A stretch of 35,740 nt of DNA. Source: Desulfobacterales bacterium (GTDB taxonomy: Bacteria; Desulfobacterota; Desulfobacteria; Desulfobacterales; B30-G6). Below are positions 28,769 through 35,740 of this stretch, piece after piece. The stretch's first letter is position 1, and every line of letters begins with the position of its first letter. A program made the position numbers and the translations under genes. The DNA lies in NCBI GenBank assembly GCA_029940035.1, contig JAOZRT010000001.1:2189-37928 (forward strand), in the 5' to 3' direction. The notes below the pieces were generated by a model, which saw nothing but the letters and a program-made list of their open reading frames with translations, was not told the DNA's origin and searched no databases.

Positions 28769-29677
28769 ATGAACACACCATCTGAGAGAATTCATCTGTT
28801 TAACCGGTTTGCCAAGGGATGGGGGGTTTTCAGGAAAAATATGCTGGGCAGGATAGGGCTGACCCTCATGATTATTTTTGCCCTCATGGCTCTGGCCAGT
28901 TTTTTCACCCCGCTCCTTGGTCCTGCGTATGATCCCATGACCGGTGTGGACCCGGAGATATCCCATGCCACTGGACCTAGTTGGCGTCACTGGCTGGGAA
29001 CCGATTTCATCGGGCGGGACATCTTCACCCAGCTTCTGGAAGGCGCCAAGATCGCTTTCATGGTGGGCCTGTCAGCGGCTTTCATCAGTATCGTACTGGG
29101 TACGATTGTCGGCATGGTTGCAGGTTACATGGGCAGCGTGGTGGATACCCTGCTCATGCGTCTGGCCGATATGATTATGGTCATGCCGTCTCTGTTGATT
29201 CTGCTTCTTCTATCAGCCCTTTTCGGACAGCTCAATATCTGGCTGATCGTTCTGCTGATAGCGCTGTTGAGATGGCCGGGGGTGTCCAGGATCATCCGTG
29301 CTCAGACATTGACGCTGAAACAACGGCCCTTTATCGAAGCAGCCAAGGTGGCCGGGGCTTCACATCTGCGGATCATATTTCATCACATTATGCCCAATGT
29401 CCTGCCCCTGTCATTTCTCTACATGACGTTTAGGGTGACATCCGCCATTTTGGTGGAGGCGGCCCTGGCGTTCCTGGGGTTCGGAGATCCCAGTCAGGTA
29501 AGTTGGGGGATGATGCTGCAATGGGTCTGGAAGACAGGACATATGTTTCAAGCACCATACTGGCTGTTGCCGCCCGGGATCTGCATATCCCTGCTCACCC
29601 TTTCTTTTTACATGCTGGGGCGAGCCATGGATGAGGTCCTCGACCCGAGATTGAGGAAAGAGGAGCATTCGGATTAA
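28769..29677 (+). CDS. Peptide ABC transporter permease, DppC type
   Basis: 302 residues. The N-terminal cytoplasmic segment and first helix (MLGRIGLTLMIIFALMALAS) are followed by the DppC hallmark HWLGTDFIGRDIFTQLLEGA. The EAA loop is EAAKVAGASHLRIIFHHIMP and the end LDPRLRKEEH is typical. It pairs with the DppB-type protein as the second half of the pore. The stop codon is one base from the next ATG. Confidence 0.92.
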   Translation: MNTPSERIHLFNRFAKGWGVFRKNMLGRIGLTLMIIFALMALASFFTPLLGPAYDPMTGVDPEISHATGPSWRHWLGTDFIGRDIFTQLLEGAKIAFMVGLSAAFISIVLGTIVGMVAGYMGSVVDTLLMRLADMIMVMPSLLILLLLSALFGQLNIWLIVLLIALLRWPGVSRIIRAQTLTLKQRPFIEAAKVAGASHLRIIFHHIMPNVLPLSFLYMTFRVTSAILVEAALAFLGFGDPSQVSWGMMLQWVWKTGHMFQAPYWLLPPGICISLLTLSFYMLGRAMDEVLDPRLRKEEHSD

Positions 29678-29678
29678 T

Positions 29679-30635
29679 ATGACATTGTTATCGGTTGAAA
29701 ATTTGTGTGTTGGCTACCAGACGAAAAACGGTGTGTTGAAAGCGGTGGATAATATTTCATTTCATCTGGAAGAGGGGCGTTCACTGGGGTTCGTTGGCGA
29801 GTCCGGTTGCGGAAAAACCACTGTCGGCATGGCGTTGATGGGTCTTTTACCGGAAAATGGAAAAATAGCCCAGGGACGGATTCTCTTTGATGGCCGGGAC
29901 CTTGTGCAACTGTCGGATGAGGCCATGCGCGCGGTGCGCTGGAATGATATCGCCATGATATTCCAGGCCGCCATGAATGCGCTGAATCCCGTCCATCGTG
30001 TACAGGAACAGATCCGGGAAGCCATTGTGGCGCATCATCCGGAAACGCCCCAGGGGGAGTTGCAGCGGCGGGTCGAGATGCTTTTCGATCTCGTGGAGAT
30101 ACCCAGAGACCGCATGCAGGATTTTCCCCATCAATTCAGCGGTGGCATGAAACAGCGGGCGATTATTGCCATGGCCCTGGCCTGCGACCCCAGGCTGGTT
30201 ATCGCGGACGAACCCACCACGGCTCTGGACGTCATTGTTCAGGATCAGATTCTGCAGGAGATAAAGATCATTCAGGACCAGATGAACATCAGTGTCCTCT
30301 TCATTTCCCACGACATCGCCGTGGTGGCCGATGTCTGTCATGACATTGCAGTGATGTTTGCCGGGCAGATCGTGGAATTCGGTTCGCGGGAGGAGGTCTT
30401 TGAAACACCCATCCACCCTTACACACGCTTACTGCTTTCCTCTTACCTGACACTGGATGGTGATAAACCGGAACCCTTGGCCTTCTCTGGGAAAACCCCC
30501 AATTTGATCAGACCTCCGTTGGGTTGCCGGTTTTACGAACAGTGCTCTCAGGCGACGACAGCATGTGAGAACAATGTGCCGGAATTTCGACAGGTATCGC
30601 CGACGCACAGAGCCTTATGCAACGTGATCCCTTAG
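29679..30635 (+). CDS. Peptide ABC transporter ATP-binding protein, DppD type
   Basis: 318 residues. Walker A GESGCGKTT, Q-loop in AMIFQAAMNALNPVHRVQEQ, signature FSGGMKQRAIIAMAL, Walker B LVIADEPTTALDV, switch ISHDIAVVADV. The C-terminal oligopeptide-transporter extension carries four Cys (GCRFYEQCS, TACE, RALC), the pattern known in this subunit class and, in a mycobacterial OppD, shown to hold an Fe-S cluster. It forms a heterodimer with the DppF-type ATPase. Confidence 0.92.
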   Translation: MTLLSVENLCVGYQTKNGVLKAVDNISFHLEEGRSLGFVGESGCGKTTVGMALMGLLPENGKIAQGRILFDGRDLVQLSDEAMRAVRWNDIAMIFQAAMNALNPVHRVQEQIREAIVAHHPETPQGELQRRVEMLFDLVEIPRDRMQDFPHQFSGGMKQRAIIAMALACDPRLVIADEPTTALDVIVQDQILQEIKIIQDQMNISVLFISHDIAVVADVCHDIAVMFAGQIVEFGSREEVFETPIHPYTRLLLSSYLTLDGDKPEPLAFSGKTPNLIRPPLGCRFYEQCSQATTACENNVPEFRQVSPTHRALCNVIP

Positions 30636-30734
30636 TTGCGACAGGTAACGAGGCCGTTGGCTTACAGCCTTGGAACATTTTTCACCTGTTTTGAACGCTC
30701 ATTATAAGTTTCAGCAAACAAAAGGACAGGCAAC

Positions 30735-31565
30735 ATGGTGGAAGTGGAAAACAGACCGATCGTACAGCTGAACAATATATCAAAGTATTACAAATCACGG
30801 GCCAGTTTTTTTAAAGCGTCCGTAGAAAATGTCACTGCCTTGAAGAAGATATCCCTGGAGATATTCAAAGGCGAAATATTCGGTCTGGTGGGCCAGAGTG
30901 GCAGCGGCAAGACAACCATGGGGCGTTTGATCGTGAAATTAGAAAATCCTGACGAGGGCAGCATCCAACTTGAAGGACAAAAGATAAATCATCTTAAAAG
31001 GCAAGCCCTAAAGGACTTCCGCATGAAAGTCCAGATGATTTTTCAGGACCCTTACCAGTCGCTCAATCCGCACCTGTCGATTTCTGACACCATTCTGGAG
31101 CCGTTGACCATCCACGGCGTCGCCACGCGGCAGGAAAGGCAGGCGAAGGTTATTAAATCACTGGAATCGGTGGGTTTGTCACCGGCCACCGACTATATGA
31201 ACCGTTACCCCCACCAGCTCAGCGGCGGCCAACGGCAACGGGTGGCCATTGCCCGCGCCATGGTATTGAAACCGGAATTCGTGGTTGCCGATGAACCCAC
31301 TTCCATGCTGGACGCCACCATCGCCATTCAGTTGTTCCGGTTGCTGTTGGATATTCGTGATCGTTTCGGCGTGACGTTTCTGTTCATCACCCACAATCTG
31401 GCAGCAGCCCGCTTTCTGTGTGACCGGCTTGCCGTGATCCAGCAGGGCGAGATCGTCGAAAGCGGCACGACCGAGAAGATTATCCGCGAACCGCAGCATG
31501 ACTACACGCGCAAATTGATTGCAGCTCAGCCTAAATTCACTTACGGTGGTCCCAACGCCCAGTGA
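30735..31565 (+). CDS. Peptide ABC transporter ATP-binding protein, DppF type
   Basis: 276 residues; AAAGGAC precedes ATG 30735. Walker A GQSGSGKTT, Q-loop MIFQDPYQSLNPHLSI, signature LSGGQRQRVAIARAM, Walker B FVVADEPTSMLDA, switch ITHNLAAARFL. It stops soon after the HDYTRKLI motif and lacks the C-terminal Cys-containing extension of longer DppF/OppF proteins, so only the DppD partner could hold a cluster. Last gene of the importer operon. Confidence 0.92.
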   Translation: MVEVENRPIVQLNNISKYYKSRASFFKASVENVTALKKISLEIFKGEIFGLVGQSGSGKTTMGRLIVKLENPDEGSIQLEGQKINHLKRQALKDFRMKVQMIFQDPYQSLNPHLSISDTILEPLTIHGVATRQERQAKVIKSLESVGLSPATDYMNRYPHQLSGGQRQRVAIARAMVLKPEFVVADEPTSMLDATIAIQLFRLLLDIRDRFGVTFLFITHNLAAARFLCDRLAVIQQGEIVESGTTEKIIREPQHDYTRKLIAAQPKFTYGGPNAQ

Positions 31566-31945: not shown

Positions 31946-34153
31946 GTGATAGAGACACACAATACAGCGTCATTACTTCCATATTTCAACAAACAGCGCG
32001 CCTTATCAATTCAACCCGACCTCGCTGCTTCCAAATCTGCGTGTCAAGGGGGATCCTCTGTACCTTTTTTGGTGATGAGTGAGTCTGATCCCATGACACG
32101 TCTACTCAAGGCAAAGATTGTTACTCAGGCAGATAGCGAAATCCAATCAGTTTTTCTTCTATTACAAAGGGATCAGTATAGCATACTTCAGGATAGTATG
32201 TGGCCTTTAAACAACAGGGATGTTGAAGCTGCCTGGCAAAGCTCTTTTGCTAATTTCACGAGTGGGAGTCACATATCAGCACCAATATTGCTGAAAGAAC
32301 AAATCCATACGGATGATGCGCTTTTGCCCATGGGTTCCACTTTTTACTGTCAAGCAAAACAGGTTTTTTTTGATCCATCCTGCCCGGCATGCGCTCAGCC
32401 ATTGGTGTTATGCACTGATGACGCGTTTTTGGAAGCGAATGGACTTCAGCCGTACACAACCTCACTTACGAGATATTTGTATTGTAAATCCTGCGCTCAG
32501 ATGAATCAGAGTCCTATTTGTTACGTGCCTTCCCAGGAGGGATGTTACCAGGAAAACATAAAAGATATGCGTCAATGGCTGGAGGCGTATAAAACGGCTG
32601 TTATCAATAAGACTATCAGATCAAGCGACCCTTGCTCAACATGCCAGGATATTAACCTGTGTTATGGTTCGGATGATTTGGCAAAATCCAGAGTCATTCC
32701 ATTCTCCTTTTTCCCGAATTATATGCTGATGTTCCCTGCGCCAACCATAGCTGCGGTTGATTTTCTACGGCTGGTGTCAGGGGCGCCGCTCGAAACTATA
32801 GCTCATCGAAATGCAGTGGGACGAGCTCCAGGCAGATTGAAATGCCTTTCTAACATGACTGAACGCTTTTCTGATAGCCAGTTTTTTCTGTTTGAAAATA
32901 ATGACAAGCAATTTCTGGAAATTCTATATTTAAAACTTTCTTTTCTATCAGAGTTGGTCCATGGCTGCTTTTCCAGTCCGGTCAATGAAAGGTTTTCTGA
33001 TATAGGATTTTCGATAGATCGAATATGGGTTAGCTTGGCAGAACAGAATCGTTATCTTCCGCTTCTATGGAATTTTAAAGCCGAGCATATCGGTGTCGGG
33101 CCATCCATGGCAATTATGCCTAAATTTCCAAAACACATCGCATTGAATGTCCTGCATTTTTTAGGATCCGCATGGTTCTATGCACTGCTTGTAAATCAAT
33201 CTCAGAATGTCGAGATGGTATTCGATGGTATTGGCAGCATGCTCCAAGATATTTCCAGCATCAATTTGGAATCTGCCGATTTCAAAGGGAAATTAGCCGG
33301 ATACCTTTTTCTAAAACCGCAAAATATTTTTTGGGATCCGGCGGCACTAAGAATTGATCCTGCCTGGGAAGCATTGTGGGAACGATCGCTCGGATTAGGT
33401 TTTTTATTTCTGCAATGCGGTCTTGAAAAAGATTCACCCACATCTATCAATACATTTTTTCAATCTATAGATCGGTTGAGAACCCAAGTAAAGAAAATGA
33501 TGTTTCAAACCGGGGAGGTGCAAGCAAGGCAAGCATTTGAAATGGCTCCCCATAAGCAGGAAGTGCATGAGATACTATCCCACATATTGAAAAAATGGCA
33601 AGCCGCCCACCCGGTCGTTGATCAAACGCGACAGTCGGTTTCAGCGCCGTCTCCTACCCGGGTAGAGACGATGGATAACAATAGTGTCAGTCCGGATGAA
33701 GATGACGCCATCTATGAAACTGTGATAATTTCGGCTAACAAATTTAGAAACCATGAACCTAACAAAGAGTCACTGCCCAATATTCCAAAAACAACTAAAT
33801 TTACATTGGATTATCCTGAAAAACCGACTGAGAATTTGGAAACAGAAGTTTCAGAGGGAATAGAGACACAGGAAACCATTATCGTACTATCTCAGGGCGG
33901 GAACGCTGATGCGCCCGTTCCGCATGGGGAAAAAGATGCGGATCTCCCAAAAACCATGATAATTTCAAGCGGTAAACAGGCGGGAAAACCCTCTCCCTTT
34001 GATCAGCAAATCATAAGTGATAGTGAGTCGACTGCGAGTACAGAGCAAGATGTCGATGCGCATACGGGGAAGCAGGAAGGTAAAGACAGTTACCACGAGG
34101 ATGATTTGTTGGAAAAAACCATCATACAGCATCGTGGAAATAAGGCTAAATAA
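31946..34153 (+). CDS. T6SS-linked protein with Cys-ribbons and a Thr-motif tail, unknown family
   Basis: 735 residues from GTG 31946, preceded by AAGGAG. I do not recognise the family. The N-terminal third has Cys pairs typical of zinc ribbons: C146-PA-C149, C156, C180-KS-C183, C230-ST-C233, C239. The middle (about 245-550) is a soluble mixed region with hydrophobic patches (NVLHFLGSAWFYALLVNQ). From about 560 the chain is acidic and disordered-looking and holds four similar motifs, YETVIIS (Thr592), QETIIVLS (Thr644), PKTMIIS (Thr670) and EKTIIQ (Thr725). They resemble phosphothreonine sites read by FHA domains; that is inference. Codon use looks more A/T-rich than upstream genes. It starts the operon and lies 4 bases from the next gene. 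Confidence 0.65.
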   Translation: MIETHNTASLLPYFNKQRALSIQPDLAASKSACQGGSSVPFLVMSESDPMTRLLKAKIVTQADSEIQSVFLLLQRDQYSILQDSMWPLNNRDVEAAWQSSFANFTSGSHISAPILLKEQIHTDDALLPMGSTFYCQAKQVFFDPSCPACAQPLVLCTDDAFLEANGLQPYTTSLTRYLYCKSCAQMNQSPICYVPSQEGCYQENIKDMRQWLEAYKTAVINKTIRSSDPCSTCQDINLCYGSDDLAKSRVIPFSFFPNYMLMFPAPTIAAVDFLRLVSGAPLETIAHRNAVGRAPGRLKCLSNMTERFSDSQFFLFENNDKQFLEILYLKLSFLSELVHGCFSSPVNERFSDIGFSIDRIWVSLAEQNRYLPLLWNFKAEHIGVGPSMAIMPKFPKHIALNVLHFLGSAWFYALLVNQSQNVEMVFDGIGSMLQDISSINLESADFKGKLAGYLFLKPQNIFWDPAALRIDPAWEALWERSLGLGFLFLQCGLEKDSPTSINTFFQSIDRLRTQVKKMMFQTGEVQARQAFEMAPHKQEVHEILSHILKKWQAAHPVVDQTRQSVSAPSPTRVETMDNNSVSPDEDDAIYETVIISANKFRNHEPNKESLPNIPKTTKFTLDYPEKPTENLETEVSEGIETQETIIVLSQGGNADAPVPHGEKDADLPKTMIISSGKQAGKPSPFDQQIISDSESTASTEQDVDAHTGKQEGKDSYHEDDLLEKTIIQHRGNKAK

Positions 34154-34157
34154 GGGT

Positions 34158-34904
34158 ATGGCACATAGCGTCGATCACGAACAATTGCTGGTTGAGATAG
34201 AAAATCTTTATGCATCTGCTCCTTCCAGTGCCGAAAAGTTAATCGAGGCTTATCTTGAAAACCGGTTGAGTTCACTAGAAGCAACTGAAAGACTGACATG
34301 CCTGAAAAAATTGACAGCTGAGACCGGGCAAGGGCAACAGAAGGCCGCAGCGCCGGCGGTGGGACAGGTGGAATCTCTGTCCAGGCTTTTCTCACTTCTG
34401 TTGAGCAAGACCGTATCTGTTGCCGACTTGACATCCGGGGAGATGACGGATCGGTTGCTGGATTCCTTTAACACGGTTTTCGATAATCTCAACCGCCTGA
34501 TCGGCAGCATCAACACCACCCTGTTCGGCGAGGGAGCCGGCGATAAAACCATCCGCCACATGATCGGGGAGCATATAGACGGCGATGCTGAAAAAAAATC
34601 ACTGGAAAGCTATATTGGCCAGATTGACAGGGCTTTCCTGGTCACGCACCAGGCTTTCCAGGGGGCTGTCAGGCAAATCGTATCCCAGATCCTGGAAGAA
34701 CTGGACCCCGAGGCCATTGTTTCGGCCGGATCTGGTGGATTGAAGCTAGGGGTTGTTAAACGAGCCGAGTTTTTTGACAGCTATAAAGATAAGTATGCCG
34801 TGGTTTGCAAGTGGTCTGAATCGGATAGATTCAGAGACCGGCTGCTGCGAGAATTTGAGAAAAAATGTCGTCAACTTTCTGATAACGGGGAGGAACAACG
34901 TTGA
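34158..34904 (+). CDS. TagH-like T6SS protein lacking the FHA domain
   Basis: 248 residues from ATG 34158; the frame is open further upstream but that part overlaps the preceding gene. The region around RLLDSFNTVFDNLNRLIGSI, YIGQIDRAFLVTHQAFQGAV, EELDPEAIV and FFDSYKDKYAVVC matches the C-terminal domain of TagH, the FHA protein of type VI secretion. The N-terminal FHA fold (G.P..S..H..I) is absent; instead there are about 80 residues of helical sequence. The position directly before tssJ and tssK is the usual one for tagH. TTGA overlap with tssJ implies coupled translation. Confidence 0.7.
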   Translation: MAHSVDHEQLLVEIENLYASAPSSAEKLIEAYLENRLSSLEATERLTCLKKLTAETGQGQQKAAAPAVGQVESLSRLFSLLLSKTVSVADLTSGEMTDRLLDSFNTVFDNLNRLIGSINTTLFGEGAGDKTIRHMIGEHIDGDAEKKSLESYIGQIDRAFLVTHQAFQGAVRQIVSQILEELDPEAIVSAGSGGLKLGVVKRAEFFDSYKDKYAVVCKWSESDRFRDRLLREFEKKCRQLSDNGEEQR

Positions 34905-35437
34905 ATCGAAAATTTTGCTCGATTGTGGTACTCATATGTGTTCTGTCAATTGTTGCCTGTGCAGCCCAGAAACCAACGCCGCCCCAGTGGGCCTACGGTC
35001 CTGAAGAAATTTCGCTGCTGCTGAGAAATGACGGTCAGCTCAACCTGATGGAAGGCATGCCACACACGCTGTTATTGTGTGCCTATCAGCTTAAGGATCC
35101 CAATACCTTCAACCAGATGTCGGAGGAGACCCAGGGCCTCCAGGAACTCCTGGAATGCGAGCTATATGATGGAAGCGTGGCTAGTGCCAGAAAAATAATC
35201 GCCTATCCCGGGCAGGACCAGACCTTTGTGCTGGATCGGGCCGAAGGGGCCAAATATGTGGCCATTGTTGCCGGCTATTACTTGTTGGTGAAGGAGCGTG
35301 TTGTGCGTGTGTTCGATGTTCCCGTGGTGATCGACAAAAAGGGTTTTTTTAAAAAGACCCTGACCAGTAAACCAGCACCATTGAACCTGGTGGTCACCCT
35401 AGGTCCCAAACAAATCCAAATGGTGGAAGGAAACTAG
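34901..35437 (+). CDS. tssJ: Type VI secretion outer-membrane lipoprotein TssJ
   Basis: 178 residues. The start is TTG 34901, overlapping the previous TGA and preceded by GGGGAGG at 34887-34893. Residues 1-19 are a lipoprotein signal with the lipobox SIVAC (Cys20). The mature part is a beta-sandwich typical of TssJ/VasD: GPEEISLLLRNDGQLNLMEG, HTLLLCAYQLKDPNTFNQM, LECELYDGSVASARKIIAYPG and YVAIVAGYYLL. TssJ anchors the TssLM membrane complex to the outer membrane through TssM. tssK follows after 5 bases. Confidence 0.9.
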   Translation: MNRKFCSIVVLICVLSIVACAAQKPTPPQWAYGPEEISLLLRNDGQLNLMEGMPHTLLLCAYQLKDPNTFNQMSEETQGLQELLECELYDGSVASARKIIAYPGQDQTFVLDRAEGAKYVAIVAGYYLLVKERVVRVFDVPVVIDKKGFFKKTLTSKPAPLNLVVTLGPKQIQMVEGN

Positions 35438-35442
35438 TCTCC

Positions 35443-35740
35443 ATGGAAAGACCTCTATTCTGGCATCAAGGCCTCTTTCTGCAACCCCAACACCTGCAGC
35501 TGAACGACCGCTACCATCAAACCCTGATGACGCCTCTGGTGCAATCTTTGACCCCCCATTTCTGGGGTGCCATAAAATTCGATATCCAGGAAGCTTCTCT
35601 GGGCAGCCGCAATTTCAATCTGGTCAGCGGTGAGATGGTATTCCCCGACATGACCCATGTGTCTTTTCCGGGCAATGCTCTGATTTCCGCCAGGTCATTT
35701 GAAGACGACTGGGTGGAGGGTGGCAAACCCTTGGGTGTGT
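35443..35740 (+). CDS. tssK: Type VI secretion baseplate protein TssK (N-terminal part)
   Basis: About 99 residues are visible before the window ends. The opening FWHQGLFLQPQHLQLNDRYH is the hallmark of TssK, the trimeric baseplate protein that links the tail to the TssJLM membrane complex. The following HFWGAIKFDIQEASLGSRNF and LVSGEMVFPD fit the shoulder domain. The order tagH-like, tssJ, tssK is standard; tssL and tssM would be expected to the right. Confidence 0.93.
   Translation, partial: MERPLFWHQGLFLQPQHLQLNDRYHQTLMTPLVQSLTPHFWGAIKFDIQEASLGSRNFNLVSGEMVFPDMTHVSFPGNALISARSFEDDWVEGGKPLGV

Follow-up and report, generated by a model that had tools for sequence, protein, structure and literature searches.

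The window, that is, the whole 35,740-nucleotide stretch of Desulfobacterales DNA analysed here, closes on the beginning of a T6SS cluster (Table 1), whose tssK gene runs on past its end. Beyond the window, the same contig continues downstream of TssK with TssL, TssM, TagF, TssA, TssB, TssC, Hcp, TssE, TssF, TssG, ClpV and VgrG; TssJ, TssK and TssM were identified by family models, and the remaining T6SS genes were named by gene order and similarity. TssJ is preceded by a TagH devoid of an FHA domain, hereafter TagH-C, and this in turn by a 735-residue protein, hereafter X. The original prediction had singled out X as a protein with Cys-ribbons and a disordered tail carrying candidate phosphothreonine motifs at Thr592, 644, 670 and 725, and inspection of the codons placed all four threonines exactly there. 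Ahead of X, the same strand carries oligopeptide-type ABC transporter genes (window positions 28769-31565) that are apparently unrelated to the T6SS.

Table 1. Features of the T6SS-associated end of the window (window positions).
Feature	Position	Strand	Basis
X, putative 735-aa scaffold protein of a split-FHA T6SS	31946..34153	+	ORF, GTG start
X folded core, residues 1-551, Cys-rich	31946..33598	+	AlphaFold2 model with 65 relatives
X Cys clusters C135, C146, C149, C156, C180, C183, C230, C233, C239 (probable metal sites)	32348..32662	+	conservation in 65 relatives
X acidic disordered tail with four T-x-x-hydrophobic type motifs	33599..34153	+	pLDDT, motif statistics
Thr592 codon, motif YETVIIS	33719..33721	+	invariant in six-sequence alignment
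Thr644 codon, motif QETIIVLS	33875..33877	+	
Thr670 codon, motif PKTMIIS	33953..33955	+	
Thr725 codon, last motif EKTIIQ, 11 residues before the C-terminus	34118..34120	+	
TagH-C, FHA-less TagH, 248 aa	34158..34904	+	C-terminal PF20232 match
TssJ lipoprotein	34901..35437	+	PF12790, TIGR03352
TssK, N-terminal part, gene runs on past the window	35443..35740	+	PF05936; full gene TIGR03353

TagH-C starts at the ATG at 34158, 4 bp past the stop codon of X, and not at 34017. Its match to T6SS_FHA_C (PF20232) is weak and partial, covering only the C-terminal part of the model (positions 100-175 of 180) with 23.8 bits against a cut-off of 23.7, and its score with TIGR03354 is 17.4 bits for a cut-off of 120. 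Since profile searches found no FHA domain either in the N-terminus of TagH-C or in X, the proposal that the tagH position encodes the C-terminal domain alone holds for the window, and it extends to every X-type relative of TagH-C, all of them short and FHA-less. These proteins share with the TagH/Fha family (TIGR03354, COG3456, PF20232) the C-terminal domain and the place beside tssJ-tssK, but differ from it in having no FHA domain and in their ORFs of about 240 aa, as compared with the 404-516 aa of canonical TagH in the same order, which occurs as a separate gene in four genomes of our class sample. In the window's genome PF20232 was found only in the window copy, and no canonical FHA-TagH was detected elsewhere. 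We found no previous description of an FHA-less TagH or a split Fha in such bacteria in the open-access literature.

X matched no family in Pfam or NCBIfam, with nothing above noise in Pfam for any of 65 members, and a profile search with its core against the PDB gave no match; judged from its sequence, X is an undescribed protein family. A scan of GTDB genomes yielded 68 X loci, mainly in Desulfobacterota, together with some in Desulfuromonadales and Nitrospirota and in single MAGs bearing other labels. Cultured environmental strains with X include Desulfosarcina widdelii (L070), D. alkanivorans (L071), Desulfospira joergensenii (L084) and the Desulfuromonadales member Geobacter sp. OR-1 (L086). 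Wherever the contig runs on past X, which is the case in about 70 relatives with sufficient sequence, an FHA-less TagH lies directly downstream of it; the four loci that show none (L081, L085, L087 and L092) are those whose contig ends inside or right after X. Within the class sample of 241 genomes, X and TagH-C were each detected in 45 and both in 42, and the distribution of X is patchy (26 of 110 genera); what is probably a new T6SS component with a predicted partner has no Pfam or NCBIfam model despite its presence in 45 of these genomes. Kinase genes are located immediately upstream of X in several lineages.

The disorder proposed for the tail of X was recovered as pLDDT values below 50 at residues 523-623 and 628-735, in an AlphaFold run with six sequences that was poor overall, the core values being taken from the run with 65 relatives. 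Together, 70 X tails contain 307 T-hydrophobic(3) motifs, whereas shuffling that preserves composition gives 13.2 ± 3.7, so the motifs are not due to chance; for this count the start of the tail was defined by a pattern, with an effect on a few proteins. Each tail carries from zero to nine motifs, repeated in most tails; with the tail cut used, two of the 70 have none, and in 65 of the 68 motif-bearing tails the last one is found 8-22 residues before the C-terminus. One genome (G142) has upstream of TagH-C only a short ORF without motifs. The consensus, D-D-x-L-E-E-T-V-I-L-S-P, consists of an acidic run, Leu/Ile, two Glu, the Thr, Val, Ile, Leu/Ile, Ser and Pro. Position +3 is L, I, M, V or F in 287 of the 307 motifs, and Gln, as in the fourth motif of the window, in 18. 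The motifs first noticed in the window are thus conserved among orthologues, and they are specific for Thr: with the flanking pattern fixed, Thr occupies the central position 247 times, Ser, Val and Ile never, and every other residue at most three times. FHA domains recognise pThr strictly, with a preference for pTxx[ILV] or pTxx[ED] (PMC8786283), and the Fha of Agrobacterium binds the TssL phosphopeptide DLPpTVVEI and not its unphosphorylated form (PMC3953482); the X motif D-L-E-E-T-V-I-L is close to this peptide.

It could be argued that the motifs are short linear motifs acting independently of phosphorylation, for instance as a hydrophobic strand that joins onto a subunit of the T6SS, in which the Thr is purely structural. 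The E-T-V-I-L pattern is indeed strongly strand-like and hydrophobic, and one genome has the X core and TagH-C without a tail (G050, described below). However, a strand motif should accept Val, Ile or Ser in place of Thr, yet none of these was seen against 247 Thr, and X is accompanied by genes for an FHA protein, kinases and PP2C phosphatases, which makes this explanation unlikely in our view.

The original prediction had envisaged a free FHA protein, encoded elsewhere, that docks on the tail. A candidate for such a reader is a protein of ~310 aa with two FHA domains, which we call dFHA. In an alignment of 12 copies, the pThr-pocket residues (G-R, S-R-x-H and N-G) are intact in FHA1, including that of the window's genome, whereas FHA2 lacks them. 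Full-length or near full-length dFHA was detected in 40 genomes with at least 166 bits, the next FHA protein scoring 65 bits. It occurs in 38 of the 48 genomes with X or TagH-C versus 2 of the 193 without them (Fisher p = 1.6e-32, a value that overstates independence because the genomes are related). In one of the dFHA-bearing exceptions (G051), a short contig carries dFHA right after TssG-ClpV. Conversely, dFHA was not detected in ten of the 48, several of which are incomplete and two of which (G148 and G151) have a canonical FHA-TagH; one X/TagH-C genome (G081) gave no FHA match at all.

The gene neighbourhoods of dFHA also point to the T6SS. It lies directly upstream of X at four Desulfuromonadales loci (L059, L086, L095 and L098), where the FHA identity was established by Pfam in three cases and by alignment in the fourth, while in ten genomes 7-44 kb separate it from X, and in two more 94 and 411 kb; in G043 it adjoins TssC, and kinase and PP2C genes adjoin it in several relatives. 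The best evidence that dFHA performs the FHA half of the work of TagH is a swap between two related modules. In G221 the module comprises a kinase, a cache-domain membrane protein, two lipoproteins and dFHA, while G148, whose genes are 72-84% identical to those of this module, has a canonical FHA-TagH at the place of dFHA; dFHA is absent and canonical FHA-TagH present both in G148 and in its relative G151. A recurrent module beside dFHA or canonical FHA-TagH encodes a cache-domain membrane protein, a kinase, a lipoprotein with a polysaccharide-deacetylase domain and a TPR lipoprotein (L181:1-5610; L182:11129-17903; L184, L186 and L189). This module resembles an input that senses the envelope and takes a position like that of TagQRST.

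In the window's own genome a kinase, a phosphatase and a free FHA protein are all encoded, but on another contig and not within the T6SS cluster: the 68-kb T6SS contig (C24) contains no FHA or kinase domain, the seven FHA and seven kinase matches all lying off it, although these genes are linked to the cluster in many relatives. The dFHA copy (G000:C267:9690-10619, minus strand) shares 4 bp with the gene downstream of it, which encodes a VipA-VipB (TssB-TssC-like) sheath fusion, and diverges from a PP2C gene and a kinase gene, the latter encoding a functional-looking protein with HRDIKPSN and DFG. As the assembly is fragmented (581 contigs, 4.8% estimated contamination) and may contain foreign contigs, the placement of dFHA in the source organism rests on orthology with relatives. 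The sheath-like fusion itself (G000:C267, L012:8116-9693, minus strand, 525 aa) is unusual beside a signalling gene, and relatives of it occur near dFHA in L177, L187 and L189.

Another kinase/PP2C/FHA locus of this genome, on contig C243, initially seemed the likely module and was dropped in favour of the C267 dFHA, which has a T6SS link. The tail might nevertheless be phosphorylated and read by other FHA proteins, namely a VWA-FHA protein on C3 and an FHA-FHA protein on C243, with dFHA having a different T6SS target. The kinases and FHA proteins of both contigs bear Thr motifs similar to those of X, but, in contrast to dFHA, these FHA proteins have no evident tie to the T6SS, and we regard this assignment as very unlikely. 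Outside X, about 395,000 residues contain 25 occurrences of a stricter version of the motif, of which three belong to the second half of a split X and five fall in the kinases and FHA proteins of C3 and C243. The five matches (KTIMI, ETVMI, KTVVV, KTMVM and ETMVF) are situated in linkers or at the C-termini of four proteins (L009:7995-9311, L009:11448-12707, L010:9536-10279 and L010:11237-13783), where the chance expectation is well below one. These Thr motifs suggest that there may be a kinase/FHA code spanning the genome.

The Cys-ribbons read in X correspond to real Cys clusters: C135, C146, C149, C180, C183, C230, C233 and C239 are invariant among 65 X sequences and C156 is nearly so. They belong to a core whose AlphaFold2 model, built with 65 relatives, reaches a pLDDT of 85.9 and a pTM of 0.88. 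That this core is a catalytically dead pseudokinase sensing a ligand, with the tail as a secondary regulator, was raised by reading of the sequence and by the top Foldseek matches of the model, largely protein kinases, but appears unlikely, as neither the Foldseek E-values (best 0.06, none significant) nor hhalign against kinases (probability 0.1, no profile similarity) supports such an identity and some X proteins have kept the tail and lost the core in part or entirely. X occurs as core plus tail, as an N-terminal Cys-rich part plus tail (family f57 and G102) or as a tail with a short helix (G016). Members of f57 lack the C-terminal half of the core and keep the motifs; likewise, the 246-aa X of G016 (L112:7580-8320, minus strand), just upstream of TagH-C, has no core and consists of the tail, motifs included, and a short conserved helix. 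The tail is thus the part of X that persists most, with the exception of G050 (L034:8259-10067, minus strand), in which the X core is fused to TagH-C in one chain and the motif tail has been lost. This fusion suggests that the core and TagH-C may act together.

In many sulfate-reducing and related bacteria, a T6SS control protein appears to have been cut into a scaffold, an FHA reader and a TagH remnant. We consider it probable that the T6SS described here carries a split version of the PpkA-PppA-Fha threonine-phosphorylation switch, with X as a multivalent pThr scaffold. A Ser/Thr kinase would phosphorylate the repeated E-T-V-I-(L/I) motifs of the disordered tail, and dFHA would read the resulting marks through its intact FHA1. 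X would associate with TagH-C via its core or the conserved short helix preceding the tail, and TagH-C could join through X or, once dFHA has bound, through dFHA, which in this scheme would bridge to TagH-C rather than act on another partner. The clustering of dFHA and TagH-C on X would rebuild in trans the canonical single-chain Fha/TagH, after which the membrane complex or the baseplate might be licensed and T6SS assembly promoted, until a PP2C phosphatase removes the marks and resets the switch.

As in the known PpkA-PppA-Fha pathway (PMC10482370) of the P. aeruginosa H1-T6SS, Serratia and Agrobacterium, a Ser/Thr kinase, a PP2C phosphatase, an FHA reader and the TagH C-terminal domain accompany the T6SS genes, and TagF is present too. 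The arrangement differs in that FHA and TagH-C reside on separate proteins and in that X bears numerous presumed pThr sites, in place of Fha1 Thr362 or TssL Thr14. The closest parallel is the Agrobacterium TssL Thr14/Fha pair (PMC3953482), with which X shares a Thr-Val-Val/Ile peptide after an acidic-Leu stretch and an expected recruitment of FHA to the membrane complex, whereas here the site is on X and repeated and the cognate TssL has no N-terminal extension. X-type TssL proteins begin at the DotU domain, while two canonical TssL proteins compared have about 50 extra N-terminal residues; where the ORF list gives an X-type TssL an apparent extension, this extension stops at the common M-R-L start and was read as upstream frame. 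Given this missing N-terminal peptide, we infer that the pThr-bearing role played by TssL in Agrobacterium may have moved to X.

In model T6SSs the interplay of Fha, its pThr ligand and the C-terminal domain of TagH is hard to make out, because one chain holds both FHA and TagH-C and the phosphosite varies among species. If evolution has separated the reader (dFHA), the tag carrier (X) and the effector domain (TagH-C), the sequence of events can be tested directly, part by part. More tentatively, X might represent a new kind of T6SS assembly hub, in which the multivalent pThr tail, with several copies of a motif similar to the one found once on TssL elsewhere, gathers TagH-C and several dFHA molecules, the cluster sets where and when the machine assembles and the number of sites tunes the threshold. 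Finally, in one genome (G211, L111:821-7442) a kinase, X and TagH-C lie directly upstream of a T6SS cluster that has a canonical FHA-TagH, and the tail of this X is degenerate, as though two systems had merged.
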